64,000 nt of DNA from Sporodiniella umbellata. Its lineage: Eukaryota; Mucoromycota; Mucoromycetes; Mucorales; Rhizopodaceae. How positions within the stretch are numbered: the first letter of the stretch is position 1; every line of letters starts with the position of its first letter. Where the stretch lies: positions 51,803 to 115,802 of the forward strand of contig JAIXMR010000090.1 in the NCBI GenBank assembly GCA_025677835.1. The letters are read 5' to 3'. The position numbers were made by a program, and so were the translations under genes. The notes under the pieces were generated by a model. That model saw only the letters and a program-made list of their open reading frames with translations. It was not told the origin of the DNA and did no database searches. Shown piece by piece: positions 1,946 to 39,666 of this stretch.

Positions 1946-3679
1946 CAGAACAAAAGAAAGGCGTTCACCAAAGCTACTATTTATGTAGATTCAGGATAGA
2001 AAAAAATAGAACAAAAAAAAAAAAGAGATGTCTTGGTCTTACTTTCTATTTATATTCTAGACACAACATGGGCTTGTTCTATCATCTTCACCAAGACAGC
2101 GTCCTTTTTCGGAGAAAACTTTCATGCCGACCTTAGCCCTCCAATCGTCTGGTCTATTAGTCAACCGTCTTCCAATCGTTTGGCCCATTAATAAACAGTA
2201 GCTTAGTCATACAGCCATCGTCGGATTGACATCGTGTTTCCGATCTATTCAGATTTTTAAATCCCACACAGAATCCTTGCCATGGCCTGTGGATTTTATC
2301 ATTGCTTTCGCTGCTACCCGGCAAAAAGTTTTGTAGCATTCGCTGATAATGACAGCATTCAAACGCAGAAGGTCTTGCATTGTCCTTCACGAGCTAACCA
2401 CTACTTGAGCATATACACACACATGGCAATACGCCATTTCAATTTTCTTTTTTTCTTTTTATTGGAAAGTTGCTTGGAATCGTTGATAAGCGTCATACAT
2501 ACGATGTCGTATCACTGCTTTTTTTTTTTTTTTTTTTTTTTTTTCAATCTATCTGCATTTAGTGGACAGTCAATGTTTCTTTTTGGGATAAATGCAGAAA
2601 AATAAGAATGAATGTGCTGGGGTGAGTGAAAGTCTCAGGGGTGAATTCTAAAGTCATGATTCGATCATATTGTGTAAAATCAGTCTATCGTAACGTGTCC
2701 CAGATTCTTGGATCGCATATTGAGTTTCAAAAAAAAAAAAAAAAAAGGGAGCAAACTCCAATATCGAAAACTGCCTTAAGCTTTAGTGCCTTGAAGCAAG
2801 CTATCTTGGGTAGGTCTTCAAATCGCAAACTATAGGTCACTGGTTAAATATCTCCATCTTTTTCTGGCGTGCAAAGACAGTTGCTTTGTACTGACTCTCA
2901 ATAGTAAATAGCCCGCAGTAGCCAGACAGTTGTGTAACCACTGCGTTATGAAAGTCATCCTAAATCCCATTCGGCCTGTATCATCCAGCAACTGTTTTCT
3001 TACAGTAAAAGCATCGATGGTTGAAGATTAGCTCATTCTAGGCCAAATTATTGAAATATCCCTTGTAAAAAGAGTCACCTTACCTAGATTAGTGTGTATG
3101 TGTTGAAGGCGGCTCATGAAACAAATGTTGAACCACCATATCAGGTTTTTATTAAATCGGATATTACTTCATCTTTGCGGTGAATATAATAAGAAAACCT
3201 TGTCAGAATCTAATTCTCTCAGCTCAAAACAGCAGTGAGAAACGATAGGCATACACGTACCCTTTTGAAAAACGAAATGCAGTGCTAGGTTTGAAGATGG
3301 TTTTCTTTGAAAGTCGAGGCATTTTTTGTTGTTTCATTTACTTTAGGGTTTCAATCTTGGTCTGAAAAAGAGCATTACACACAATGACACCATAATCACC
3401 GCCTTTCCTACATCAGTAAGCTTTTCGCACGGCCTGCCTAACACACTGCAAGTCTTTGGCACAATTCTCTGCCTGTTCTCTATTTCAGAGATATTTATAT
3501 ATCGTCTTTATTAAAACAAGTTTTTTTTTTTTTTTTTTTTTTTTTTGGGAAATGACTTCCCCAATGTATGTCTTTTCGGGTTGACTTTGATCCACTTTAC
3601 AGCAGCCTATTTTCTGCGTAGTCGTATATATCTAGAGACAATATACATACAGAGAGAAGACTGCTTTCCAGCCATTTAT
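1946..3679. other. intergenic, no supported gene
   Basis: Spacer between the catalase start and the end of the Obg gene. It holds long T tracts (2519-2544, 3522-3546) and an A tract near 2730-2745, probably including catalase promoter DNA on the left. A 77-codon minus-strand reading frame at 2157-2390 contains several cysteines (for example ECCHYQ and DDGCMTK), but it has no clear ATG or signal peptide, so I do not call it as a gene. Confidence 0.6.
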
Positions 3680-5089
3680 TTAAAAGATTTCTTCTTCCTC
3701 TATGGCTTTTTGTATAGCTTTCTTGGCTTCTATTTCTTCCATTCGAATACGTTCCACCTCTTTACGTAAAAAGGAAGTAAGTTTCAGTACGTTTTTTTCA
3801 TATCGAGCAGACACGGGTATAATGGGGATATTCTTGACTTGTGATACCAACTGCTGTAGGTTTTCTTTGGCCAGAGCTACTTTATCGGCCTTGTTGGCCA
3901 CAATCAGCGATTGCCGTTCGGTCAAACCCGGTTTGTAAGCTTCTAATTCATCTTGCAGTGTTCTCAGATCATCCCAAGGGGCAGGGCCACTGACATCAAT
4001 CACGTATACCAAAAGCTTGGCCCGCTCTACATGACGAAGAAAAGCATGTCCCAGACCAATGTTCATATGAGCTCCTTTGATCAGTCCTGGAATATCGGCG
4101 ACTGTAAGCTGGTATTGATCTGCATAGTCCACAGTGCCCACAAAAGGATGTAACGTGGTGAATGCATAGTTGGCCTGTTTAGGATGTGCATTGGAGATAG
4201 AGCCCAGGAGAGTGGATTTACCAGCGTTGGGCAATCCTACCAGTCCAATGTCAGCAATCGTCTTTAACTCAAGTTCGATCTGTTTTTGCTCTCCTTTTCG
4301 ACCGCGCGTAGCCCACTTGGGAGATCGGTTTTCAGTGGTTAGGAAATATGGGTTACCATAACCTCCAGTCGCTCCTCGACAGACAATCACCTCCTGGCCT
4401 TCCTCTGCCAAGTCGATTTCCACAGTATCACGTTTCTCTTGATGCAATCGCCAACGGTTGTATCGATCCTCTTCATCCAATAACTTCTCTGCCTGTCGAA
4501 AGAAATTCACTTTGCCTTCAGGCACGACCTGATCTTCCGACCGTGGATAATAAACCCATCTTGCTTCACGCCGTCTTGCTTTTTCTTCAGGATCCAATTC
4601 TCCCTCTTCCTCTTCCTCTATCCATGCATTGCGTACAATAGTACCCACAGGCACTTTAATAACCAAAGGGTCCCCTTTTTGCCCTTGCCGACCGCCTCCC
4701 AAACCGTTCTGTCCTCGCTGGCCTGAGCATAGCTTACCCATCCGACGAAGGGACCCTTCATCTGCACACGCTCGAATAATCACATCCCCACCGCGTCCTC
4801 CATTGCCACCATTGGGTGGGCCTTTAGGTAAAAACTTTTCTCGTTGAAACGAAATACAACCATCCCCTCCATCACCACCCTTGGCTTTGAATCGAATGAA
4901 ATCAACAAAATTACGATGCTGTCTGTCATTACTAAAAAAAAAAAAAAAAACGGTATCATCCTCAGGTCATACCTTGCTTGTCATTTTAGGATCATAGTAA
5001 CGATTGGAACTACTCGTTGAAAAATTTGCAGCTGAAGATCGGCTGAGCGATCGTAACGGGAAAATGACTTGCTTTGTAATGACTTGCAT
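3680..5089 (-). CDS. MTG2: mitochondrial Obg-family GTPase
   Basis: GTPase expected to act in assembly of the large mitochondrial ribosomal subunit. Two exons, 5089-4973 and 4918-3680, give 451 residues. The first about 35 residues are rich in Arg, Ser and aliphatic residues with few acids (MQVITKQVIFPLRSLSRSS), as in a mitochondrial targeting sequence. A glycine-rich Obg fold follows (KAKGGDGGDG, GGNGGRGGDV), then the G domain: G1 GLPNAGKST, G3 DIPGLI, G4 NKAD. The acceptor is a choice: the first AG after the polypyrimidine tract (at 4934) would put a stop in frame, while an AG 15 nt further on (CAG just before 4918) keeps the frame, so I use the latter. The C-terminus is a charged helix. 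Family is certain; the mitochondrial role follows from eukaryotic homologues and the leader. Confidence 0.93.
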
Positions 5090-5159
5090 TGATATAAATA
5101 GAAAATAAAAAAGTCAAAATAAACTCGAGCCGAAAAAAAAATAAAAGGCTTTTACAGTG

Positions 5160-5896
5160 CTTCTACTGCCATTTGGACACGATGTGACATTATTGGTCAA
5201 GATTTAAAAGCCATTTGGTCGCTTTTTAATATTTATTTGGTCACTTTTTATTTTTATTTGGTCACTTTTTATTTTCATTTGGTCGCTTTTTTATTTTCAT
5301 TTGGTCATTTTATTATTTTCATTTGGTCGTTACTGAGATCTTTATTTTGCTTTTGTAACGAGTCACAATGCGAACACTGATTTTTTCCATGAAAAAGGAG
5401 CAAGCTCAAGAAGTATCGAGTTACTTTGAGGAATCATTTTCCTTAACCGGCTTGACAGATCTTCAAAAGCATATTAAAAAGCCTGGACATTCAGGTTAAA
5501 GCAAGATCTTCAGCCGACACGGAGATGGAAGAGGCTAAAATCAAGAAGGGAAGAGTTTCTCAATATAATTTCTATACACTCGAAGATTGTGAGCGTTAGT
5601 TTTATTTTTTGAAGATCTGTCAAACCGATGCTTCTTGAACTTGCTTATCAATAATAGCGCCAACACCTTTTTCATGGAAAAAATCAGTGTTCGCATTGTG
5701 ACTCGTTACAAAAGCAAAATAAAGATCTCAGTAACGACCAAATGAAAATAATAAAATGACCAAATGAAAATAAAAAAGCGACCAAATGAAAATAAAAAGT
5801 GACCAAATAAAAATAAAAAGTGACCAAATAAATATTAAAAAGCGACCAAATGGCTTTTAAATCTTGACCAATAATGTCACATCGTGGCAGTAGAAG
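5160..5896. mobile_element. foldback-like element with tandem-repeat inverted arms
   Basis: The left arm (about 5160-5400) reappears in reverse complement at about 5665-5896; both outer ends carry the same CTTCTACTGCC / GGCAGTAGAAG terminus. Each arm holds about six tandem units of roughly 21 bp, each with TTTGGTC followed by a T-rich stretch, then TTACTGAGATC, ACGAGTCACAATGCG and TTTTTCCATG. A more diverged inverted repeat continues inward (GACAGATCTTCAAAA at about 5456 against TTTTTTGAAGATCTGTC at about 5607). The only internal frame is 43 codons (5368-5499), with no recognisable transposase. Arms made of short tandem repeats are typical of foldback elements. I saw no convincing target-site duplication, so mobility is inferred; the element is probably non-autonomous. 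Confidence 0.7.
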
Positions 5897-6305
5897 TACG
5901 ATACTTTTTCTTCGTTCCAAAAAAAAAAAAAGAAAAAGAATCAGTAGCTTCAAACCTAAAACAAATTTCACTTTTTTTTTTCTTTTTGTAAAACAACAGT
6001 TTCTTTGTACAGGACAAACTTGATTTTATGCTAAGACAAATGTTTTGATTTGCCTAGTGTTATCAATGGCAGTGAAATTTTTTTTTTTTTTTTTTTCAAA
6101 GAAAATTTTGCCGGAGCGTTTGAGAAAGACCGGATCGGAAAAAAAAAATGGCGTCCTTATAAGGATGTCTGTGGTGCAAACTCAATGATCTTTCTCTTAC
6201 TTGCCAGGTAAACAAAAAGAAGACTATTAAGTTTAGGCATCCATCCATCCTAATTGATATAATGTATAGTTCTTTAAAAAGTTCCTCGAACAGTAAATCT
6301 TAAAC
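5897..6305. other. promoter region of the uL10 gene
   Basis: AT-rich spacer of 409 bp between the foldback element and the uL10 start codon, with poly-T tracts (for example near 6077-6096) of the kind found upstream of strongly expressed fungal genes. The CCTTATAAGG site within it is listed separately. Confidence 0.5.
6155..6164 (+). promoter_or_regulatory. CArG-box-like palindrome upstream of uL10
   Basis: CCTTATAAGG, 141 bp before the uL10 ATG, matches the CC(A/T)6GG consensus bound by MADS-box factors (SRF/Mcm1 type). It could equally serve as a TATA element. Only the sequence match is seen. Confidence 0.35.
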
Positions 6306-17500: not shown

Positions 17501-19015
17501 AGTTATTTTATCGATTTCTTCTTGATGATGCACACTCATTTCTTCAATTTGAGCCGTAGACTGTGTTTTGAGCGTTTCCAGCTCATTTTGTTGCGAATTT
17601 CTAGAATCCAGCGCTGCATGTTCAAATTCAGCAATCTTTTCCAGAAGCTTATTCTTTTCCTCGCTCGGATCTGTATTGGATTCCTGTAGCGCTTTTAGGG
17701 TATCGTTTAAGGTCTGCATTTGGTCCTCATAGTCCTTTCTCATAGACTCTATTTCAATGGTATGTTGCTCATTCAACTGCTGATTCAATTCCGTCAATCT
17801 AGATTGATTTGAGCCTTGTGTATCCTAGCAACAGCGATAAAAAAAATAAGCACCATGTTTCTGCCTCTGATCTTCTCTTACTTTAGCACCTTCAAGAAGC
17901 ACCTCCATCTCTTTTTTAACTTGTGCCACATCAGCCTCTTTTTGCTCTATACAAGCTAAAAGTTCGGCTTTTTCTTCTCTCCAGGCCTCTTCAGCATCTT
18001 GAATTAGTGTATTTTTTTTTTCTTCTAGAGCAGCCGAGATGGCCTGGTCACGATCTGCCTCCAGTTTGCTTATCTTTCCTTGAAGCTCTTCTAAGCTCTC
18101 TTTTCCAACAAACTTTGACTCGATTTGATCTTCTGAGATACTTAAATCCTGCTCTGGAGTAGCGAGACCCGTTTCAAGCTGAACTAATCTTTCTTTTAAT
18201 GAGCTTAAATCGCTTTCTTTACTGTCTATCAAAGCTTGTTTTTCAGATAACTGAATTTCCATCTCCTCATTCTAACGTATAAAAGATAAGAGGGAGCTTT
18301 TTTCTGAGAAATTATTGAAATTTACTTTTTCTTTGAGAGTCTTTAGTTCTGCTAGAAGCTCACTCGGTCTTGTGGAAGCTGTTGCAGTAGGCGAACGTGT
18401 AGTGTTCATCGAAGTAACAGACGGGGCTCTTCTAGCAGTAGAAAGAACACCAGTTCGAGCACTAGTAGTAGATTCAGTTGGCGATAAGACCCTTCGGGTG
18501 GCTGTAGAAGCGGTGGAGCTGGGCCTAGATGGTACAATCGACTTTCGAACAGATGGCGTAGAGCCAACCGACGATCTTGAAGTAGCTGATGCAGTAGTAC
18601 TCGTAGTACTTGGCTTAAGAGGAGGCGCTCGTGTAGCAGGTGTTTTAGAGGCACGTACAGAAGTGGCCGTCTTGGAAGCTGGGGCTGAGGCTGTTACTGG
18701 TGTTTTAGAGGCAGACGTTGCAACAGAAGGGGTCCGAGGTGTTTTAGAGGCCGTAGTTGAAGGAGCTCTTGTTAGTGTTGAGTTAGGTGTTTTTGAAGCC
18801 GTAACAGAGGGTGTTCTAGAAACCAGTGGCGTTTTGGAAGCACGTACACTGGAGGTTGCGGTGCTTGTGGGTGCTTTACTAGGCCGGACTGTCCGTGCGG
18901 TAGAGGCAGTGGGAGTTGGAGAGGTTGGACTACCTGCTGGTTTTTTATTGACGGCAGTCAACCCGGCCGCTGCCAAAGAAGAAATACGGTTTTTCACACT
19001 CGGGCTGTCACTCAT
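11507..19015 (-). CDS. giant coiled-coil protein with SKTP-rich head (2298 aa)
   Basis: Eleven exons: 19015-18326, 18271-17882, 17824-17489, 17425-17291, 17238-17041, 16979-12966 (4014 nt), 12912-12757, 12682-12122, 12063-11791, 11738-11632, 11543-11507; the sum is 6897 nt, in frame throughout. Residues 1 to about 220 form a disordered, basic Ser/Thr/Pro/Ala head with many (A)SKTP or SRTP motifs. From about residue 225 to the end the chain is almost pure Glu/Lys/Gln/His/Leu heptads. The long exon carries tandem 70-residue repeats (separate entry). No enzyme, CAP-Gly, GRIP or membrane segment is visible. Such a basic SKTP head on a long rod suggests a cytoskeletal, septal or golgin-like tether; the S/T-P sites could be targets of proline-directed kinases. 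Function is unknown; the gene model is strong. Confidence 0.85.
14590..16124 (-). repeat. tandem 70-residue (about 210-bp) coding repeats in the coiled-coil gene
   Basis: About seven consecutive units inside the long exon, each opening with a (S/T/L)H-x-x-Q motif (SHLQQLKEA, THEQQIKKA, SHLTHLNEA, SHQKQLEDA, IHKKQSKEA, LHQKQVEEA, LHQKQMTSI) and containing EELQ/EELE and KEHE-like blocks at fixed positions. The first two units are each exactly 70 residues, that is ten heptads; the eighth and later units decay. The DNA copies have diverged clearly, so the array is old and kept as protein. Confidence 0.85.
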
Positions 19016-21606
19016 ATTTTGCACGAAACAAAGAAAAAAAAAAGAAAAAAAGCAACAGGAACAGGAACCGAAAAAATATATTCTGAGTTTCAACTTGCTT
19101 TCAACTCATTTTGACATTTAACGCATTTGTAAAAATAGAGAGCAAATTATTTACAGCAAGTTTATTAAACAAATTCCAGTATTTATGTAGTCCTAAAATG
19201 TCTAACGCCTTATAAGATTAAAAATAGGAGTAGAATCGCCACTTTCAATTCTCAACAGCGAAACGAGAATATAACTTGAAAGACAGAAGTAATGATGTTT
19301 GGTTACAGCCCAAATACTCAATAAATCTGCGTAATTATTATTATCGTCCAAGCATATACTTTTACGCAAATTCAAAAGATGCTAACGAACTTCTAATGTA
19401 TCGGCTTTCTGTACTTAATTTTAGACACAATCCAGATTTTATATAGCAGCTTTGACCATATGCGGAAAAACGATCACTTGAATACAGACGGCCGCAGTTT
19501 CATTGTTTTTTGTTTAATAGATATGCCGCCTGACTTATGTTAGGTTTCGGTGGATATGGATGCTTTACTATCCAGCCGTCATATAGTATTCAATGATATA
19601 TCGGCTTCAGGATAACCTAGAGATAATTAAATGCTTTGTACACTTTAGTTCCCACTGTAACGTTTTCAAGGTTTAAACCTTATTAACATCTAATTATTCG
19701 GGTTTTATTTGCGCTATTTATTTCACTTCGAAAAGTGCTGGATTGTTAGCGCAAGGGTCTAAACCAGGATGACTGCTTTCAAAAATAAAAGTTTTAATCC
19801 CGTTATACAATTTTTCTAAGAAATATTGCGTTATTAATATTGAAGAAGGTTTATTGTCACAAGCATTTGTGTATGACCATGAACATTTCTGTTGAAAACG
19901 ACATAAAGATTGATATGTTTTTTCCTACAAACCTTTGTATATTTTTACAGGTATTTTTTAGTGTCGTTTTTTTTATGTGTTTTGAAAAAAATTTCCTTCT
20001 CTGTAGCGACTTTGCTTTTGTAGCTGTCAAGATTTTACGTTAAGAATAGGTCTTCAGATATTAAGTAAGCAAAGCTTGTTGCTAACGTCGAACCTATTTT
20101 AGTCATTATATCACTTAGCTTATAATCAATATGAATTGCAGCTTTGAGAAGTTCACAGTAAATTTGAATATACATTAAACTATTCTCTTACCCCCAATTT
20201 CCATAGCTTGTTCAAGTAAAGTAAATTCGGTGCAAGATATTCTTCAAAAAAGATACATCCTGTGCATCTACTTTGATCACATATAATTCAGTAAAAACAC
20301 AGCTCATATAGCTTTCGATGCACAGAGAAAGGTATGCGCAAGTTTACTCGTTGTGCACCGTAGAGATATCTACGAAAGATAGATTTACCTTTTTCTAATA
20401 GTGGAAAAATTACCTCCAGAATAAAGATAGAACTAAACGCTTGATTTTCTCTAACAAAGTATTAGAATTGACTTTTATATCGCTGCGCAAGCAATACAAT
20501 CGAACAATAACTATAAGGCCAGGGTTGATAAAAAGTCTTTTAAAAAATAGAGTATTCAGTATACTGGAATATGGCGTCATTAATTACTTGTTTATTTCGC
20601 TAAAGCAGGAAACGATCTGCAGTATGTAACGGACACTCTTATTTTCTATATTTTTTATTTAAAAAGCTTTCCACAACACATTACGTTTGCTTCAAAATAT
20701 GTACTTAAGTCCTTGTGCTTCAATCGAGGCTATTGTAAGAGGATAGCATATGTTGCTTTTTTTTTTTAGTGCCAACAAAAAAAAAACTGAAACTTTCTAA
20801 AGTATCGTCTTGTAATAGATAAAATCTTTTGTAACAATCGGCTGTGTTCATGTGTTTTACTGACGTACTGTGCAGTGAAAAATGTTGTTTCAGATTGAAG
20901 TCAGAGTAGCCAAGACTTTTGCCTTTTTTTATTTCTGTAACAATACGAATAAATACAATACAGATTATCTCTGTAGCACTCTGATAGTCCATATATAGCT
21001 TTTCTACAAAAAGAAAAAAGGCTGTGCAATTTAAAACCAAATTTCTTCATACTTTATATTAATTAAACTAAAGAAAAGACGATTTTACCATAAAAAAGAA
21101 AAACAGACAAAGAGGCTACTTGGTTGCTGTGGAGAACGTATATGAAGTCTGTATATATAACAGTTCCCTCTCATACAACAAAACATTGTTTCTGTCTTAG
21201 TGTGTTGTATACCAGATTGAAAACCACTATTTGTTTAAAGTCTAAACAGCGATAAAACCGAGCTTTGTACGCACTTCAGGCATTATATAAGCCTTTGCTG
21301 TTAAAAAAACCCCCCCGGTAAGCCCCAGAACTCTACGTCAAACCGCAGAATATTCAATCTTATTAGGAAATGCAAAACAAAAAATAAAACGGAAAAAGAG
21401 ATCTGTTTTGTCGTGACAAGAGAAAAATGGATTTGAGAACGTAAATCTTGCTATAGGCCATAGCGTGTCCTAAGAGCGACACAAGGCATACACCGGCATA
21501 CTCTATGCATGCTAAAAAACGGTTTACTATGAAAGTTTTGGAGTATCTGTTTTAAAGGCCGCAAAGACACTTAGAGTGTCTACCTAAAGAGTAAATGGAT
21601 GACTAA
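19016..21606. other. gene-poor AT-rich region
   Basis: 2.6 kb without a convincing gene. The left few hundred bases should be the promoter of the coiled-coil gene. Frames are short and have no protein-like composition. No remnant of the permease gene is visible just outside the left inverted arm, although that arm copies the permease upstream region. Confidence 0.6.
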
Positions 21607-23158
21607 AAGAAGACTTTGGATTGAGAAACCGAATGAGTGGGGTAACTCAAAGTCTAGAAAAGTGCGAACGACTGAGTTTTGAATGGATAATAAATTAAAT
21701 GAGCAGTTGATTGGTGCGTGGGTTCCTACCAGAAGAAGAATGAGTTTTTTTTTTTTTTCACCACGGTAGTGTAGTACAGCGTATTTTGAATTCTTGGTGT
21801 GAGAGGAACAGTGACTGAGGGTCATGTGAACATCAAAAGAACCAGAGACGTTTATGGTCAAGTTCCGATATAACGTCTTTTTTACAACTTTCCTTTTGAG
21901 TGTGTGTTGTATTTCCCTTATAGAGTAAATCGATGATTTGTGATTCAATCCAAAATGAAATTCATTAGCCTTTTTGAACATACGCATTTGTTTGTTTATG
22001 TCTCCTTTCTTGCCCCTTCTAGGAAAACCACAATAAATACAGGGGGTCAGAGCGAGATAGGGTTTCTTTATCTCAGATACAATTAGATTTGAGTAACAAA
22101 GATAGAGTTCCTATCACTCGCTTTCTATAAAAGAAACAAGAGAAAACCAGTTAGGCTGGGTGAAGCGGAAAAATAATAATAATACCAAATACATACAAAA
22201 AAAAAATCAGTTCACTTTCAAAACCGACCTACCTCATACGCGTCGCTCCATCTATTCTTATCTATAAAAGATAATGAAACATACAATCAGTAATAGTTTT
22301 TTTTTTCTTTGGTCTCTCTTTTTTTTTTTTTTTTATCAACACTCGTTCTGCACACGTATCCCTTACAGGTTCTAGATTTCTCAAAACTAGGACGCGTTTT
22401 TTGACCCAAATTAAACCGTGTTTTACCCATTTACGCCCAAATACACACACACACACACCATTTATTTTCCTTGTGTGGGAATTGTGTTGCTTTTTTTTTT
22501 TTTGGTATCTTTTGATTAGTCAAGCTTATTTGTGTTACCTTAGTACTATGCCAGAATCGGTTGAGAAACAAAAGTTTATCTTTGTGTTTGGTCCTGTTTT
22601 CTGCCAACAAAGGTCATGTGCACCAAATTTCTACCATTCATTATTACTGTGCCTTGCACCGTGAAAACAGGTAAAGTAGAGCCAAAAAAAAAAAAAAAAC
22701 AAAGAGGAAAAAAAAAAAAAAGAGGACGGAGATTAACAGCCGGAGTTTTGCTAAAGGTAGGACTTTTTAAGCTATTTTGGTAAGAAAAGTTACCAAAACC
22801 AATGGAAAAAGATCGTCGACTTAACCAGCCTCTGGAAAAATAAAATAAAACAAATGAAAAGCCGATTTGAACCAGTAAAAAATCTTCGGGGATATTCCAT
22901 ATATAACGTTTCACAGTGAAGAAAAACTACAGCCAACCCTATGGAAATTGGCGTTTTCATAAAAATAGTTGTCACCTTTATAGAAATAATTGTCGACAAT
23001 TGAAAAGATAAATGTCACAAACTCAATTGTTTTTTGTCGTTCTGGTCAAGAGTATTTGTTCATGCCAGCTAATTAAATTTGGCGCTTAAGTTGATCATAG
23101 ATATTTGTCGTTTTAAAAATAATCATTCAAGATATATATTCATATATTAGAATAATGT
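21607..23158 (-). repeat. left arm of a 1552-bp inverted repeat
   Basis: Reverse complement of 25084-26635, nearly base for base. The differences I noticed are single-base changes in homopolymer length (16 against 17 in the tract at 22684, 13 against 12 in the tract at 22491). Arm length is the same on both sides. The outer end starts AAGAAGACTTTGG and the inner end finishes AATAATGT. The frames within it translate identically in both arms but look like chance frames rich in Phe and Lys homopolymers. Confidence 0.95.
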
Positions 23159-23194
23159 CAATATTTAATAATGTATACACATATACAACACAAT

Positions 23195-24345
23195 TCATTC
23201 GAAAATATCCGTATTTTCAAATTGATAACGAACCGTATCTTTATCCCCAACATGGTCCAGAAAGTTGTTCTCTTGACATAACTTTTTCAACACATCCTTT
23301 TGATTGTCATATTCATTATAAGATAAATAAGTAAAAATGCCAATGATTTTACAAAGTTAAAGGCATTTACCTGCAGCGTAGCCAACAAATCAAAGACCGA
23401 GATCGTATTTGCCCTTGCACTTCTTAATTCAATAACTTGCCATTTCGTTGTACTAAAGAGACTACATTTTGTCAATGTAATTTTGTCGCAGATAAACTGA
23501 ATTCCATAAGATGCCAAATTTTTAGCGGTATCAGAAGAAACATTCTGGTACTTTAAAATTTCATTACGTAAGGAGTTGCTAGTCATGATTATGAGTTTCC
23601 AGGTATCTTGCAGGGAATGGTCAGTATATTCAGTAGAAAAGGAACCAGACGATTCCATGATTACTACTTTGAACCCATTCTTGCACCCGACACCATCTGC
23701 AAACAGCCTTTCGGTACTGCTATTCCAGACATTTGGAATGACTTGGCTGTTGGCATGAGAAAGCGTTTTTGATTTGCACCTTATGCATAATATTAACAAT
23801 ATCAGTATATTTCAATCGTATTCCAATTAACGTGTTAGCTACTTACCAGCTAAATATGAACCCTTTGTTCATGATACAGAAATGCTCAAAGATAGTTATA
23901 ACGTATTCTGTTCAGAAGGTCCTCTCATGGCCTATGTTGAAATCAAGCCTCTGGAATAATCCCAAAAATCGGTCAAAATAATAGTAATTGCCGAAAAAAA
24001 GTTGATACACAACGAGCCCCAAACCAAAGCTTTATTCTTGAAATGCCACACATTCAGAGAAAAGTTTTCGAATTGCACATCATCAGCCATCAAATCTTTC
24101 AACAGCTTAAGTACGTTTGGAAACTTTCCTAAACATTGCAAAGCCTTTTGATCAGCACAATTGTTATTTAAAACACCTCGCAAAGAGAGTGGCATCGATG
24201 ACAAAAGCATATTTTATAAGGCGATATGGCACTTGTCTTGTACGCTTTCAATATCTGTAGTTAATAAGTTTGGTAAATTAGGGTTATGGTTTATTAATCT
24301 TGACAGCCCCATCAATTTAGTTTCGCCTGCATCTGACAAGACTGA
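23195..24345 (-). pseudogene. decayed gene of an uncharacterised fungal repeat family, in the inverted-repeat spacer
   Basis: A minus-strand coding remnant can be followed from about 24345 to a stop at 23195. Clear exons: (about 23929)-23847, 23779-23371, 23296-23195, joined by good GT-AG introns. The best part contains VVIMESSGSFSTEYTDHSL, WKLIIMTSNSLRNEI and KWQVIELRSA. Breaks: a TGA at 23914-23912 where the reading HERTF-x-TEYV probably needs Trp, a TAA between the first two segments near 24216, and a frame change near 23930. From memory, such met-glu-ser-ser-gly/leu-arg-ser-ala proteins form large unnamed families in Mucorales; I could not check this. Probably non-functional. Confidence 0.65.
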
Positions 24346-24468
24346 AAAAATAAACAAGAAAATATTGATAAATAACATATTAAGCATGGTAATGAACAGC
24401 TTTATTACGTGAAACGACCTGATAAAAGAAAAATAACTTTACTTTGGTATATACAGAAAGGAGACCGG

Positions 24469-24496
<28 letters not shown>
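24469..24496 (+). repeat. (GA)14 microsatellite
   Basis: Uninterrupted GA dinucleotide run in the spacer of the large inverted repeat, followed by a short purine-rich stretch. Confidence 0.95.
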
Positions 24497-24502
<6 letters not shown>

Positions 24503-25083
24503 GGAGGGGAGCGCCATGGGGGGAAGCGGAAAAGGTGAGTGGCTTCATCAAGACAGTCTTTATAAATGAGCACATTCCTTACTTATCAAACTTATTCTAA
24601 CAATAACTAAAAAGCAAAGCCAAGGTAGAGACGGAGAAGAAGAGGCGCGCACTACATATCTTGTTGTTCAATATATCTTCTTTATTGCTTTACAATAGAC
24701 ACCCACCTTATTATGAAGCAATAAATATCTCCCAAAAGGAAAAAGATTACACAAAATTTGTTAGTTGACCACATCGTGATGAGAGGTGTAACTAGATGAA
24801 ACGGATAATGATAAGAGCTAGGGCAATTTCGTATATGTGAGACAGCGTTTGGGTTATTGTTCCCATGTTACCAATATAGGGTCCACAATTGCCAGCGGAC
24901 CGTACTGACGATAGAGAAGAAAGTGGATAGGGAGACAAATTCTTTAGGAACATGGAGATATCTGAGAGCACTGTATATAAATTCGGGTTGAATTAATGAT
25001 GCCTGCAACGATGTGCTCATCAGCGACCTCTATGGTTTCTGTAACCACTCAAAGCGCCAGATTGTTAAATGTTACAAAAAAAC
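24497..25083. other. right part of the inverted-repeat spacer, no gene seen
   Basis: About 590 bp between the GA repeat and the right arm. It contains no protein-like reading frame and no recognised element. Confidence 0.5.
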
Positions 25084-26635
25084 ACATTATTCTAATATAT
25101 GAATATATATCTTGAATGATTATTTTTAAAACGACAAATATCTATGATCAACTTAAGCGCCAAATTTAATTAGCTGGCATGAACAAATACTCTTGACCAG
25201 AACGACAAAAAACAATTGAGTTTGTGACATTTATCTTTTCAATTGTCGACAATTATTTCTATAAAGGTGACAACTATTTTTATGAAAACGCCAATTTCCA
25301 TAGGGTTGGCTGTAGTTTTTCTTCACTGTGAAACGTTATATATGGAATATCCCCGAAGATTTTTTACTGGTTCAAATCGGCTTTTCATTTGTTTTATTTT
25401 ATTTTTCCAGAGGCTGGTTAAGTCGACGATCTTTTTCCATTGGTTTTGGTAACTTTTCTTACCAAAATAGCTTAAAAAGTCCTACCTTTAGCAAAACTCC
25501 GGCTGTTAATCTCCGTCCTCTTTTTTTTTTTTTTCCTCTTTGTTTTTTTTTTTTTTTTTGGCTCTACTTTACCTGTTTTCACGGTGCAAGGCACAGTAAT
25601 AATGAATGGTAGAAATTTGGTGCACATGACCTTTGTTGGCAGAAAACAGGACCAAACACAAAGATAAACTTTTGTTTCTCAACCGATTCTGGCATAGTAC
25701 TAAGGTAACACAAATAAGCTTGACTAATCAAAAGATACCAAAAAAAAAAAAGCAACACAATTCCCACACAAGGAAAATAAATGGTGTGTGTGTGTGTGTA
25801 TTTGGGCGTAAATGGGTAAAACACGGTTTAATTTGGGTCAAAAAACGCGTCCTAGTTTTGAGAAATCTAGAACCTGTAAGGGATACGTGTGCAGAACGAG
25901 TGTTGATAAAAAAAAAAAAAAAAGAGAGACCAAAGAAAAAAAAAACTATTACTGATTGTATGTTTCATTATCTTTTATAGATAAGAATAGATGGAGCGAC
26001 GCGTATGAGGTAGGTCGGTTTTGAAAGTGAACTGATTTTTTTTTTGTATGTATTTGGTATTATTATTATTTTTCCGCTTCACCCAGCCTAACTGGTTTTC
26101 TCTTGTTTCTTTTATAGAAAGCGAGTGATAGGAACTCTATCTTTGTTACTCAAATCTAATTGTATCTGAGATAAAGAAACCCTATCTCGCTCTGACCCCC
26201 TGTATTTATTGTGGTTTTCCTAGAAGGGGCAAGAAAGGAGACATAAACAAACAAATGCGTATGTTCAAAAAGGCTAATGAATTTCATTTTGGATTGAATC
26301 ACAAATCATCGATTTACTCTATAAGGGAAATACAACACACACTCAAAAGGAAAGTTGTAAAAAAGACGTTATATCGGAACTTGACCATAAACGTCTCTGG
26401 TTCTTTTGATGTTCACATGACCCTCAGTCACTGTTCCTCTCACACCAAGAATTCAAAATACGCTGTACTACACTACCGTGGTGAAAAAAAAAAAAAACTC
26501 ATTCTTCTTCTGGTAGGAACCCACGCACCAATCAACTGCTCATTTAATTTATTATCCATTCAAAACTCAGTCGTTCGCACTTTTCTAGACTTTGAGTTAC
26601 CCCACTCATTCGGTTTCTCAATCCAAAGTCTTCTT
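25084..26635 (+). repeat. right arm of the 1552-bp inverted repeat, distal promoter of the permease
   Basis: Mirror copy of 21607-23158. It ends 133 bp before the permease start codon and 13 bp before that gene's TATA-like box, so the unique sequence left between arm and gene is just the core promoter and leader. Homology stops sharply at GTCTTCTT; the bases beyond (GGTTGTGG) do not match the flank of the left arm. Confidence 0.95.
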
Positions 26636-26648
26636 GGTTGTGGACGGA

Positions 26649-26656
26649 TATAAAAG
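26649..26656 (+). promoter_or_regulatory. TATA-like box of the permease gene
   Basis: TATAAAAG, 113 bp upstream of the permease ATG and just outside the inverted-repeat arm. A long A tract (26674-26694) and a T-rich stretch lie between it and the start codon. Assigned by sequence and position only. Confidence 0.55.
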
Positions 26657-26768
26657 GCGAGCAAGAATAAGATGAAAAAAAAAAAAAAAAAAAAATTTGT
26701 CTTTATCTAACACGAAAAAAAAAAACGCCTATTTTTTTATATATTTCCTTTCATCTTTAAACAAATAA

Positions 26769-28085
26769 ATGAAATTAGAGAATTATACACCTTCCATAGC
26801 AAGTTCTGACAAACACAGTAAGGTCGAACAAATAACCATTGATCGCGTTGAGGAGGACAATGGAATCATTCAGAATGAATTTGGTCATGGCAATGGAAGC
26901 TTTCTTACTGCCTATTTTAACATTGTTTGCGTGGTTGCTGGTACGGGTACACTGGGTCTTCCAAAAGCCTTTGCCCAAGGTGGTTGGCTGGGTATCCTGA
27001 TTTTGATTCTCGCTTATGCTATGGCAGTTTACTCTGGCATTGTTCTCATTCGTTGTCTTTACTATAAACCCGGTCAACGCCTTCACGATTTCAAAGCCAT
27101 TGGTACCGCTGCATTTGGAAAAGTAGGCTACATTGTTGCCTCTATTCTTCATCTGCTTAATCTCTTTGGCTGCCCTGCACTCTATATTGTACTGGCCTCT
27201 AACAACATGACCTATCTCTTGCAAGGCACTCGTGGTGAATTGACTTACAAAACTTGGGCCATCATCTGGGGTGTCTTTTTGCTTATTCCTTCCTTAGTCA
27301 TGCGAACTTTGAAAGAAGTCACTGCTATTGCTGCTATCGGTGCTATTTGTACTATGATAGCTGTCTTTGTGGTTGTGATTCAAGGCCCCATGTATCGCTT
27401 TGCACACCCCGAAATCGTAGTCGAACACAACTCGGTCATTTGGGAAGGTTTCCCTATGGCTCTTTCTACTATTGCTTTCTCTTTTGGCGGTAACAACACT
27501 TACCCTCATGCTGAGCATGCTCTTAAGAAGCCCCACCAATGGAAATGGGCTGTTACCACGGGCCTTACCACTTGTGTCTGTCTTTACTTCTTGGCTGCCG
27601 TGCCTGGTTACTGGTCTTTCGGTACTGCTACCAAATCCCCTATCTACAACTCTTTGCCCGATGGCACTGGCAAGCTCCTCTCTATGATCGTCATGACAAT
27701 TCACGTCATCTTGGCTGTACCTATCTACAGTACCTCTTTCTCACTCGAGTTTGAAAAGTTTATTAACTGTACTGACGAGAGATTTGGTAAGTTTGGTTCT
27801 TGGGTTGGACGCTCCATCATCCGTGCTTGTACTATGGTCATTCTTGTGATTCTTGCTTGTTTTATTCCTTTCTTTGATGATTTCATGGGTTTAATTGGTG
27901 CCTTGGCTAACTGTGGTCTTGTATTTCTTTTGCCTATTCTCTGTTACCTCAAACTCACAGGTGTACGTAATAAGCCTTGGTATGAACTGGCTTTCTGCGC
28001 TCTTACTCTTTTCTTGGGTATCATCGGTTGTGTCTTTGGTACTATCGATTCTATCAAGTCTCTTATTGCCGACTTTAAGGCTTAG
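26769..28085 (+). CDS. AAAP-family amino-acid permease, copy 1
   Basis: Single exon, 438 residues, about eleven hydrophobic segments. A short acidic cytoplasmic N-terminus leads to the first membrane segment with the AAAP-type motif AGTGTLGLPKAF; later motifs include FSFGGNNTYPHAEHALKKP and GYWSFG. This places it in the amino acid/auxin permease family, proton-coupled transporters in the plasma or vacuolar membrane; the substrate cannot be told. It is strikingly like the gene at 38328-39635 along its whole length, with most differences near the N-terminus. Its upstream DNA lies inside the large inverted repeat. A (TC)n run begins 4 bp after the stop codon. Confidence 0.93.
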   Translation: MKLENYTPSIASSDKHSKVEQITIDRVEEDNGIIQNEFGHGNGSFLTAYFNIVCVVAGTGTLGLPKAFAQGGWLGILILILAYAMAVYSGIVLIRCLYYKPGQRLHDFKAIGTAAFGKVGYIVASILHLLNLFGCPALYIVLASNNMTYLLQGTRGELTYKTWAIIWGVFLLIPSLVMRTLKEVTAIAAIGAICTMIAVFVVVIQGPMYRFAHPEIVVEHNSVIWEGFPMALSTIAFSFGGNNTYPHAEHALKKPHQWKWAVTTGLTTCVCLYFLAAVPGYWSFGTATKSPIYNSLPDGTGKLLSMIVMTIHVILAVPIYSTSFSLEFEKFINCTDERFGKFGSWVGRSIIRACTMVILVILACFIPFFDDFMGLIGALANCGLVFLLPILCYLKLTGVRNKPWYELAFCALTLFLGIIGCVFGTIDSIKSLIADFKA

Positions 28086-28086
28086 G

Positions 28087-28088
<2 letters not shown>

Positions 28089-28121
<33 letters not shown>
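28089..28121 (+). repeat. (TC)n microsatellite in the permease 3' UTR
   Basis: About 16 TC units starting just after the permease stop codon. Confidence 0.95.
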
Positions 28122-28125
<4 letters not shown>

Positions 28126-28991
28126 ATAGAAAACAAACAAAAAGCAACAACCTCAGATACTCTTCTATTTTCCTTACGTGTATATAATACCCCCCCTTTT
28201 CTATTCTATTATCCCCCCTTTTTTTTTCTCCTCAAAAAGAGTATATACAATAAAATTCCTTTTTTTCCTCAAAAAGAACATGAAACAACCTTATCTGTTT
28301 GTATTACACTATGAGTTCTCACACATCGCCTTTTGTATTGAAATATCAAGAAAATAAAAATGGCTCCATTAATTTTTTATAAACAATAAATGACATATTT
28401 TTTCCCACCAGGGCAAATATATTAATCTATTTGTACTCAAAATAAAGAGCTTTTAATAAAAGTAAAACCACGCAAAATGAAAGCATGTGTGTTTACTCTG
28501 TTTTTTTTTCTCTGGCAAACAGATGTCTTGCCGAGAAAATGAGAGTGAGGTGGGGCATTTGAAGTGTAAAAAATTCAAAAGCCATTACAAACCTCTGGAC
28601 TTGAACTGCTTTTATCTAGTGTTCACTCTTTTCTTTAGTGCATGTAGATTAAATACCCAACTCAAAAAGCAACCAAACCACTCACTAACCTCCTATAGAT
28701 AAAAGAAGTATCAAAAACAGTAGAGACTATTGATTGCAAAAAAAAAAAAAAAAAAAAATACTCTTTTCAAGTTTCGCCATAGTAAACGGTGGCTGTTATC
28801 AAGCTGCACTTTACTTTGTGTGCTATGGCTGAGCATGGCTACAAATATGTCCCTGATATGTGTTCACGTGATCTTTTGAAGCGCGCATAAACGCTGTAAT
28901 TGAAAACTCGTCTACTCTGCAATGAGAGGCATAGATACTTTTTTTTTTTAGTGAAAAAAATAAATAAAAAAAACCAACGACAATAATAATC
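28122..28991. other. intergenic, permease 3' flank and FYV10 promoter
   Basis: 870 bp, AT-rich, with AATAAA-like signals near 28250 and 28380 and an A tract at 28739-28759. No coding potential that I can support. Confidence 0.55.
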
Positions 28992-30542
28992 ATGAATGGC
29001 CTTAAAACAGAAAAAATCATTGAGCTTGAACCTTCTTTTATGAAAGTAAAGCTGACCTCTTTTTCTTTTTGCAAAAGCTGACTGAATTGCTTTAGGTGCC
29101 TTATGAACAACTTCGCAAGACATTCAAAAATGAGTACAAGTACTTGGAAAAAGAACTTTTAAATCTCCAAGATATTATTGAGCGCTGTTTGAGGTCTAAT
29201 GCACCTATTGAAAAAACGCAAGAAACCGTAGAGATTCTGATGAGACAGATTGAGAAAATAATTGAAAGAGTAACTATATAGACTTTTACTGTCCCCCTAA
29301 CGTTTTGTTTAGATGAATTTGTATAGAGCCGAGGGCGAGCTGGATAGTCGGAGAGTAGAGAAGAGAGTAGACAACTTGGGTGAGATTGACCAGGTAACAT
29401 CCTCTAGAACACCTGAATTTGTGGCCTGGTCCAAAACACGACTGAATCGAGGTATAGTAGACTATCTCTTGAGAGAAGGTCTATCCAACACAGCCAAAGA
29501 AGTAGCGGAGGAAGAAGGGATTGTGGTAATCTTGTGATTTCATAGTGATCGTCCGAAATACTTTGTGAGATTAAACCTTTTTTCTAATAGGACTTGGTCG
29601 ATATCGATTTATTTTCACAGGCAGAAAAAATCGAGCAAGCTTTGCAAAACCAAAATTGCAAAGAGTGTCTAGTATGGTGTGCAGAAAACCGATCTAGTTT
29701 GAAAAAAACAAAAGTAGGGTTTTTTATCAGCATATATATATGCATGTGTATGTTGTATGCTTACCTCTTTTATTGTTGGCATTGAAGAGTACGTTAGAAT
29801 TCAATCTAAGATTACAAGAGCATATTGAACTTGCCAGAGCTTCCAAAGGAATAGAGGCTATTGGCTATGCTCAAAAGCATCTGACACCTTGGAAAACGAC
29901 AGAGGGTCTAAGAATTGGTCAAGCCATGGCTTTGTTAGCTTACAAAAGTAATACCCAATGTCAACCTTATAAGGTAAGGTTGGGAAAGGCTCAAAATCAT
30001 ATCGCCTTTTAACACACTCAACATCCACCATCAATATAGGCTTTCTATGACCCAAGACGATGGTCGGAACTTATTGAACAGTTTAGAGCAGATTATTACG
30101 CGCTTTGTTCGCTCACGCCCCATCCTATGATGTCCATTACACTTCAAGCAGGACTCTCTGCTCTCAAAACTCAACAATGCTACGAGCACGATAATAAGAA
30201 TGTGAATTGTCCCGTATGTGATGAAAATACCCTCGGCAAATTAGCTGAAAAACTACCACTGAGCCACCATGTCAATTCAACTTTGGTCTGTCGCCTGAGC
30301 GGAAAAATAATGAATGAGGACAATCCTCCGATGTTGTTACCTAACGGGAGAGTCTATAGCCAGACGGTAAATAAAATCACTTTCTAGGTATATTCTGCTC
30401 ACTTTTCTTACCTTTTTTTTTTTTTAAAAAAAAAAAATAGGCTCTAGGCGAGTTAGCAGCTAAAAACGACGGAAAGATCATTTGTCCTCGAACTGGGGAT
30501 GTATTTACACCCAAAGATCTGCGAAAAGTGTTCATCTCTTAA
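28992..30542 (+). CDS. FYV10: GID/CTLH E3 ubiquitin-ligase subunit (MAEA / Gid9 type)
   Basis: Seven exons: 28992-29045, 29096-29269, 29313-29525, 29591-29713, 29788-29973, 30040-30366, 30441-30542; 392 residues, matching human MAEA (about 396). The GID/CTLH complex ubiquitinates substrates such as gluconeogenic enzymes in yeast. Visible: an N-terminal helical region (VPYEQLRKTFKNEYKYLEKE), a LisH/CTLH part with LLREGLSNTAKEVAEEEGI, a CRA region (STLEFNLRLQEHIELARA, GIEAIGYAQKHL), and a degenerate C-terminal RING (CPVCDENTLGKLAEKLP, CRLSGKIM, CPRTGDVFTPKDLRKVFI). The start was chosen because the first exon joins in phase 0 to VPYEQL and lengthens the protein to family size. Confidence 0.93.
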
Positions 30543-38327: not shown

Positions 38328-39635
38328 TTAAGCTCTGAAGTCTCTTACTAAAGATCTAATTGAATCGATAGTACCAAAGACGCAGCCCACAATACCCAAG
38401 AAAAGAGTGAATGCACAGAAAGCCAATTCGTACCATGGCTTGTTACGGACACCAGTAAGTCTCAGGTAGGAGAGAATAGGCAGTAAAAATACAAGACCGC
38501 ATGTTGAGATGGCGCCAATAAGACTCATGAAATCATCAAAGTAAGGGACGAAACAAGCCAAGACAGCCAAGATAACCATAACGATGGAACGGATGGTGGC
38601 TCGGATAGCCCAAGCGCCCAATTTACCAAAACGTTCTTCAGTAGAGCCGATGCTTTTTTCGAGCTCAAGAGAGAAGGAGGTACTGAAGATGGGAATGGCC
38701 AGTACCACATGGATTGTCATTACAATGGTAGATAAAAGTTTAGCAGTGCCTTCAGGCAGCGATCTGTAGACAGGAGATTGAACCGCATCACCAAAAGACC
38801 AATATCCAGTGACAGCAGTCAAGACATAGAGACAGACACAGGTACTCAAACCGGCAAAGAGAGCCCATTTCCATTGATGAGGCTTTTTAAGGGCGTGTTC
38901 AACGTGAGGGTATGTGTTGTTACCGCCAAAAGAAAAAGCAATGGTCGAGAGGGCCAGCGGAAATCCGTCCCAAATAACAGAGCTACGGTTCACGACAATT
39001 TCTGGGTGGGCGTGGAAATGCATAGGGCCTTGGATAACCACCACAAAGACGGCTATCATGGTAGATATAGCACCCACTGCTGAAAAAGCAGTGACTTCTT
39101 TCAGTGTTTTCATAACCAAGCCTGGGATAAGCAAAAACGAACTCCAGATGATGACCCAGGTCTTGTAAGTGAGCTCAGCACGAGTGCCTTGTAAAAGAAA
39201 AGACATATTGGCTGAGGCCAAGACGAGATAAAGTGCAGGACATCCAAAAATGTTGACTATATGAAGAATCGAGGCAACCCAATACCCTACTTTACCAAAA
39301 GCAGCAGTACCTATTTCTTTAAAGTCGTGCAGACGGTGACCAGGTTTATAGTATAGGCATCGAATGAGCACAATACCCGAGTATATAGACATGATATAGG
39401 CAAGGAAAAGAATCAATAAGCCAAGCCACCCTCCCATAGCAAACGCTTTGGGAAGACCCAAGGTTCCGGTACCAGCAACCACACAAACAATGTTGAAATA
39501 AGCGGTGGAAAAGTTGCCGTTGCCGTGACCAAAATCAGTTGTATGCGATGTATTGTCTTCTTCAATATACTGGCAAGAAAACTGATCTTTCTTTTCTTGT
39601 GTATTTCCATCTTCAGATAAGTTGTTTTGATCCAT
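38328..39635 (-). CDS. AAAP-family amino-acid permease, copy 2
   Basis: Single exon, 435 residues, in the opposite direction to its close relative at 26769-28085. The same segments recur nearly unchanged (AGTGTLGLPKAFAMGGWLG, FSFGGNNTYPHVEHALKKP, GYWSFGDAVQSP), as does the C-terminal region, while the acidic N-terminus differs more. Proton-coupled amino-acid transport is inferred from the family; the substrate is unknown. Unlike copy 1, its promoter is not part of an inverted repeat. A 26-29-bp A/T tract (39670-39697) lies in its leader. The pair looks like a local duplication. Confidence 0.93.
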   Translation of the reverse strand: MDQNNLSEDGNTQEKKDQFSCQYIEEDNTSHTTDFGHGNGNFSTAYFNIVCVVAGTGTLGLPKAFAMGGWLGLLILFLAYIMSIYSGIVLIRCLYYKPGHRLHDFKEIGTAAFGKVGYWVASILHIVNIFGCPALYLVLASANMSFLLQGTRAELTYKTWVIIWSSFLLIPGLVMKTLKEVTAFSAVGAISTMIAVFVVVIQGPMHFHAHPEIVVNRSSVIWDGFPLALSTIAFSFGGNNTYPHVEHALKKPHQWKWALFAGLSTCVCLYVLTAVTGYWSFGDAVQSPVYRSLPEGTAKLLSTIVMTIHVVLAIPIFSTSFSLELEKSIGSTEERFGKLGAWAIRATIRSIVMVILAVLACFVPYFDDFMSLIGAISTCGLVFLLPILSYLRLTGVRNKPWYELAFCAFTLFLGIVGCVFGTIDSIRSLVRDFRA

Positions 39636-39666
39636 TGTATGTTAAAGGGGGGGAGAAAGGATAAAA

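Follow-up and report, generated by a model that had tools for sequence, protein, structure and literature searches.

How can two kilobase-long stretches of a fungal contig be reverse complements of one another without a single substitution between them? This question is raised by an inverted repeat at positions 21607-26635 of a 64,000-nucleotide stretch of the genome of the mucoralean Sporodiniella umbellata (contig JAIXMR010000090.1; this whole stretch is hereafter called the window), which an earlier annotation (the original prediction) had described as a near-perfect inverted repeat in non-coding AT-rich DNA. Here, we describe how the repeat is built around one end of an old transposable element, and argue that it probably arose recently, through duplication in inverted orientation starting from one end of a decayed Tc1/mariner-type transposon. 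The overall interpretation offered in the original prediction was partly supported by our analysis; the transposon, the likely direction of copying and the recurrence of such arms elsewhere in the genome had all escaped it.

Results

The left arm (21607-23158, minus strand) and the right arm (25084-26635, plus strand) are each 1552 bp long and flank a spacer of 1925 bp. When one was aligned globally with the reverse complement of the other, we counted 1551 identities, no mismatches and two one-base gaps (99.87% identity), both of which fall in homopolymers: a T run at 22491 with 13 versus 12 bases and an A run at 22683/22684 with 16 versus 17. This confirms the earlier observation that arms of equal length differ in homopolymer length only. 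By the rule of three, zero substitutions across 1551 sites place the divergence of the arms below about 0.2%. Shuffling the window base by base five times yielded no exact inverted match longer than 18-20 bases, and a chance origin of the arms is thus excluded. A search for further copies in the S. umbellata genome (25.9 Mb, 198 contigs), as the original prediction had proposed, revealed no third full-length arm among the matches listed, which otherwise comprised only short low-complexity stretches or transposon ends; the latter, dispersed through the genome, correspond to the inner part of the arm.

Each arm consists of an inner 229 bp of transposon end and an outer 1323 bp of host DNA (TA included). 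The left end (22930-23158, plus strand) is preceded by TA at 22928-22929 (TACAGC at 22928), and the right end (25084-25312, minus strand), its mirror image, is followed by TA at 25313-25314. The end thus reads TA followed by CAGCCAACCCTATGGAAATTGGCGTTTT, with TA directly before CAGCC at 22928/22930 and, in mirror image, at 25312/25314. The region 22925-23092 and its right-arm mirror match, in whole or in part, dispersed genome sequences at 67-88% DNA identity; within the left end, about 22930-23092 is common to other ends, and is followed by 66 bp of the type that lies on the 3' side of the transposase. We aligned 14 related ends from elsewhere in the genome (family end TACAGTCAAACC). TACAGTC was found in eight of them, with two more a single base off; both ends of L026 (loci outside the window are given L numbers) have CAGTC with no TA before it, and no judgement is possible for L029 or for the right end of L030, which are too eroded. 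A 20-base family pattern, allowing up to two mismatches, occurs at 27 places in the genome, two of which are the window's own, and its reversed control at none.

CAGT-like terminal repeats flanked by TA are a feature of Tc1/mariner (IS630-Tc1-mariner) elements. Because the window element has ends of this type and related elements contain DDE_3 transposase frames (L022, 2.5e-9; L024, 2e-17), its sequence places it as a decayed Tc1/mariner-type transposon. A helix-turn-helix (HTH) domain also scored above cut-off in L052, and a DDE_3 profile search of the genome (101 rows) found none on the window's contig. The element proper spans 22930-25312, and the inverted repeat extends 1323 bp beyond it on both sides. 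As the left TA would belong to copied DNA, the paired TAs at the locus are no evidence of a true TA duplication. We looked for a target-site duplication at the outer arm ends and saw none, and these ends have neither a CAGT-type terminus nor a TA. The original prediction had therefore been right to report no target-site duplication, while overlooking the TA-flanked CAGCC ends inside the arms. Its description of the arms as non-coding is not contradicted for their outer part, given that in a Pfam search of seven open reading frames (ORFs) of the window, including two in the arms and four of the spacer frames, only the transporter gene described below scored above cut-off; the inner 229 bp are transposon end.

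If one arm was copied from the other, which is the original? A remnant of the transposase C-terminus (...NDACNDVLISDLYGFCNHSKRQIVKCYKKT) lies at 24992-25090 on the plus strand and extends 7 bases into the right arm, and is mostly absent on the left. Read as protein, this segment is 76% identical to residues 96-128 of the 128-residue L053 transposase frame (E 1.5e-14) and 91% identical to an L022 frame. Apart from one weak further match just upstream (E 0.047), these roughly 33 C-terminal codons are all that is clearly left of the transposase in the window. At the DNA level, a single alignment with L024 (81%, with gaps in 6 of its 183 columns) covers 24990-25169 and passes over the inner edge at 25084, and L022 aligns in two separate segments, 24990-25091 (89%) and 25119-25169 (82%). 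On the left side, the similarity to L024 stops inside the arm (about 23080-23153), and the 40 bases beyond each inner edge bear no mutual resemblance. Because only the right inner edge continues into the transposase C-terminus, and because its outward side leads to the transporter gene, it is strongly suggested that the right arm is the native one, from which the left arm was copied in inverted orientation. The right arm would then be a parental unit of the last transposase codons with their 3' side, the transposon end and the DNA upstream of the transporter, and both transposon ends would derive from one end of the element; the left end, too, carries sequence from the transposase 3' side.

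The putative parental flank (25313-26635, plus strand) stops 133 bp upstream of the ATG of an amino-acid transporter gene that adjoins the right arm (26769-28085, plus strand; Aa_trans, 438 residues, Pfam PF01490, 2.5e-62) and has homologues in Mucorales, the best other one being 89% identical. The duplicated flank (21607-22929, minus strand; 1323 bp including the TA) abuts a region, 19200-21606, with no match in the genome besides itself. A transporter paralogue lies about 10 kb away on the opposite strand (38328-39641), with DNA 74% identical to that of 26769-28085 over 1209 bases.

Between the arms lies a cargo gene (23198-24195, minus strand), which was recognized through piecewise matches to P0125, a Parasitella parasitica protein, at contig coordinates 75000-75997. 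Over 78% of its length, a 174-residue frame in the spacer shows 100% identity with S. umbellata BY458DRAFT_559025 (P0121), which represents part of the gene, and P0125 matches the spacer frame at 82% over 66% of the query. Relative to P0125, the N-terminal part of the gene is broken by stops and frame changes. Homologues in Parasitella, Mucor and Rhizopus are hypothetical proteins. A resemblance of the cargo proteins to PD-(D/E)XK nucleases was considered and not adopted. An AlphaFold2 model of the cargo protein built from 10 sequences (mean predicted local distance difference test score 41.5) was too poor for fold comparison.

The arrangement of these genes bears on the suggestion, made in the original prediction, that the arms might trigger RNA interference (RNAi) as a long hairpin, and on the related idea of a programmed switch in which the spacer flips. 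In flip-flop inverted repeats such as the yeast mating-type loci, a regulatory gene at the arm edge or in the spacer is switched by inversion. The symmetry of the arms would permit a hairpin or an inversion, and the genome encodes a Piwi domain at one place and RNA-dependent RNA polymerase (RdRP) domains on four contigs. A trigger is therefore possible in principle, with a precedent for silencing in Mu killer of maize (PMC3440606, PMC2563033). It is weakly motivated, since neither the coding part of the transporter gene nor the cargo gene lies within the arms, so that small interfering RNAs would hit little besides the transposon end and intergenic DNA. Likewise, because the cargo gene matches lie wholly within the spacer, inversion would swap no coding parts. 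We consider selection for either function very improbable indeed.

Are such arms confined to the window? The 101 DDE_3 rows merged into 93 genes, and among pairs lying within 10.5 kb of one another (some genes being counted in more than one pair) the two members lay on opposite strands in 21 cases and shared a strand in 5. We fetched 20 loci chosen for opposite-strand DDE_3 matches or transposon-end matches, a selection from which no genome-wide rate follows, and compared each with itself, taking at least 60 bp and E 1e-10 as the threshold for an inverted pair. Inverted arms were present in 11, with lengths of 345 to at least 3040 bp and identities of 95.5-100%. The most similar were those of L052 (1682 bp, 100%), L054 (1157 bp, 99.91%), L055 (873 bp, 99.89%), L053 (2090 bp, 99.86%), L059 (at least 3040 bp, 99.84%, reaching the edge of the piece compared) and L026 (345 bp, 99.71%), followed by L058 (475 bp, 98.7%), L056 (407 bp, 97.5%, 7 mismatches), L060 (2818 bp, 97.3%, 51 mismatches), L057 (1700 bp, 96.8%) and L061 (2884 bp, 95.5%). 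The sister elements L060 and L061 also hold long arrays of the hexamer GTCGTA inside their arms (1965-2706 and 1951-2801, respectively), which read as poly-Val, Arg-Ser or Asp-Tyr depending on the frame.

In seven of the 11 (L026, L052, L053, L055, L056, L060 and L061), the outer edge of the arm lies at, or at most 5 bases from, a CAGT-type end. In L054 it falls within the transposase gene, which means that arm edges need not be transposon ends, and in L058 the edge reads ATACACC, which may be the end of another family. P0125 gave no alignment with an L054 spacer ORF. These loci invite the view that the window repeat is itself a transposon with giant terminal inverted repeats (TIRs), with true ends at 21607 and 26635, that was inserted as a unit, for the 0.9-2.9 kb arms of L052, L053, L055, L060 and L061 hold transposase sequence and start at a transposon end. 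The window arms, however, lack such a terminus at their outer limits, and carry the typical TA-flanked CAGCC end inside, and the matches listed for the genome include no full copy of their outer 1.3 kb beyond these two, all of which makes insertion as a giant-TIR unit very unlikely.

L060 provides a different precedent. At 2966-4403 of this locus (contig C125), the arms encode the N-terminal stretches of two convergent ORFs, which are identical there but diverge once they enter the spacer (44% identity across 124 aligned residues, shared stretch included). That arm identity stops so sharply inside a homologous gene pair fits gene conversion there. By analogy, the window arms might be an older inverted pair held identical by continuing arm-to-arm conversion rather than the product of a single recent duplication. 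We think this unlikely, since the 40 bases just inside the two window arms are dissimilar, and an older pair that once reached further inward has thus left no trace there. The spacers of the sister elements L053 and L060 lie in opposite orientation (97.6% identical); we considered this as proof of flipping and set it aside as ambiguous, as a symmetric element inserted in reverse would look alike.

Apart from the arms, a screen of the window for inverted pairs (150 bp or longer, 80% identity or higher) turned up a single one, at 5178-5398/5666-5886 (221 bp, 100%). This perfect repeat, with a spacer of 267 bp, has TACAGTGCTTC on its left outer side, which resembles the L052 transposon end, and the region 5153-5911 is probably a short non-autonomous element in which the repeats are internal. 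An Rfam search of 19000-29000 gave two matches under the gathering score (GAIT, E 0.57), which we took to be chance.

Discussion

How, then, might the locus have formed? With no substitutions between the arms and a transposase reduced to about 33 codons, the identity of the arms is much younger than the element, which supports the alternatives named in the original prediction, an event of very recent date or gene conversion that is still going on. The origin that we consider probable is a recent duplication, in inverted orientation, that started from one end of the transposon, and we favour copying from that end by template switching or break repair. In this scheme, a break or loss would have affected the transposon's left end together with the flank beside it, and the DNA end on the side of the element would have been repaired by outward copying of about 1.55 kb from the right end, by a template switch or break-induced copying, perhaps aided by homology between ends. 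The new end would then have been joined to the left flank at 21606/21607, leaving the cargo gene between two identical transposon ends that both stem from one. Later arm-to-arm gene conversion may have wiped out differences. We would now expect the locus to be passed on as structural DNA, liable to gene conversion between its arms and to inversion of its spacer, and we regard it as a product of transposon-associated repair, not a device.

Several points weigh against this account. We infer the direction of copying. Clear microhomology was looked for at the inner junction and none was seen (an 8-base ACATTATT repeat nearby was noticed post hoc and is not claimed as such), and the inner edge falls 66 bp inside the part common to related ends. 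The position of the edge and the absence of clear microhomology mean that homology-driven invasion is not shown, and that template switching without long homology would serve equally well. Nine of the 20 loci had no inverted pair (L022, L023, L024, L025, L027, L028, L029, L030 and L031), although some of these are pieces around one transposon end, and L022 and L023 come from a single contig, where they form two ends that share 98% identity across 162 bp. In none of the 11 armed loci were the arms shown to pass a transposon end into host DNA. Finally, the window arms differ by homopolymer length alone, the usual type of sequencing error, as might be expected if the second arm were a product of assembly, made from a chimeric or fold-back read or by mis-joining of a repeat. 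A simple fold-back should run on as the inverted left flank, whereas here the outer sides differ: the region on the left matches only itself and that on the right is the transporter gene, so two separate false joins would be needed, and a 1925-bp spacer that is not palindromic lies in the middle. Inverted arms also recur at other loci, in some cases with real differences (7 mismatches in L056, 51 in L060). We therefore judge an assembly artefact distinctly unlikely.

A repair-borne duplication would turn an anonymous palindrome into a directional rearrangement, in which an old transposon has newly gained, in inverted orientation, a second copy of its end and of the adjoining host DNA. More tentatively, and with considerable doubt, we suggest that Tc1/mariner-type elements in this genome might have been rebuilt repeatedly, one end and its adjoining DNA being copied inverted across a gene. 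If so, the process would create new mobile units with identical ends and a cargo gene, sometimes with transposase sequence in both arms, and genes would be captured via inverted duplication of a single transposon end, which in the window took host flank along. Should the other long arms share this origin, the species would be well suited to studying how DNA transposons grow TIRs and gain cargo, and informative about how genomes tolerate kilobase palindromes.

Among the matches listed in a literature search that lay mostly outside subscription journals and preprints, no title or abstract opening dealt with such arms in Mucorales, and the term Tc1 does not occur in the consulted part of a review on giant transposons of eukaryotes (PMC6431247). 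Three systems invite comparison. The Bari elements of Drosophila are, like the element described here, Tc1/mariner transposons with long terminal repeats, whose long-TIR variants have repeats of roughly 250 bases that are identical in one variant (PMC4877112); unlike the present arms, repeats of that length would hold neither a transposase gene nor host flank. Galileo, of the P superfamily, and foldback-like elements in Drosophila have long, variable TIRs that can be extended by recruiting non-TIR sequence (PMC4168063). Galileo recruits internal sequence, whereas the window arms would have grown in the outward direction, beyond the end of the transposon and into the host sequence, and the transposase families differ. 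Mu killer (Muk) of maize is a rearranged, internally deleted MuDR element, both of whose TIRs come from one end (PMC3440606, PMC2563033). It sits between two host genes and contains an inverted duplication about 1.3 kb in length (PMC3440606). Muk belongs to Mutator and its duplicated part is the transposase gene; the window element is of Tc1/mariner type, its arms are mainly host flank and its spacer contains a cargo gene. Silencing has been reported for Muk; at the window locus it would be no more than a possibility. With DDE_3 present in related elements, we do not file the window element as Muk, but in structure it is perhaps Muk-like: in both, the two ends appear to derive from one element end and to be joined by an inverted duplication.

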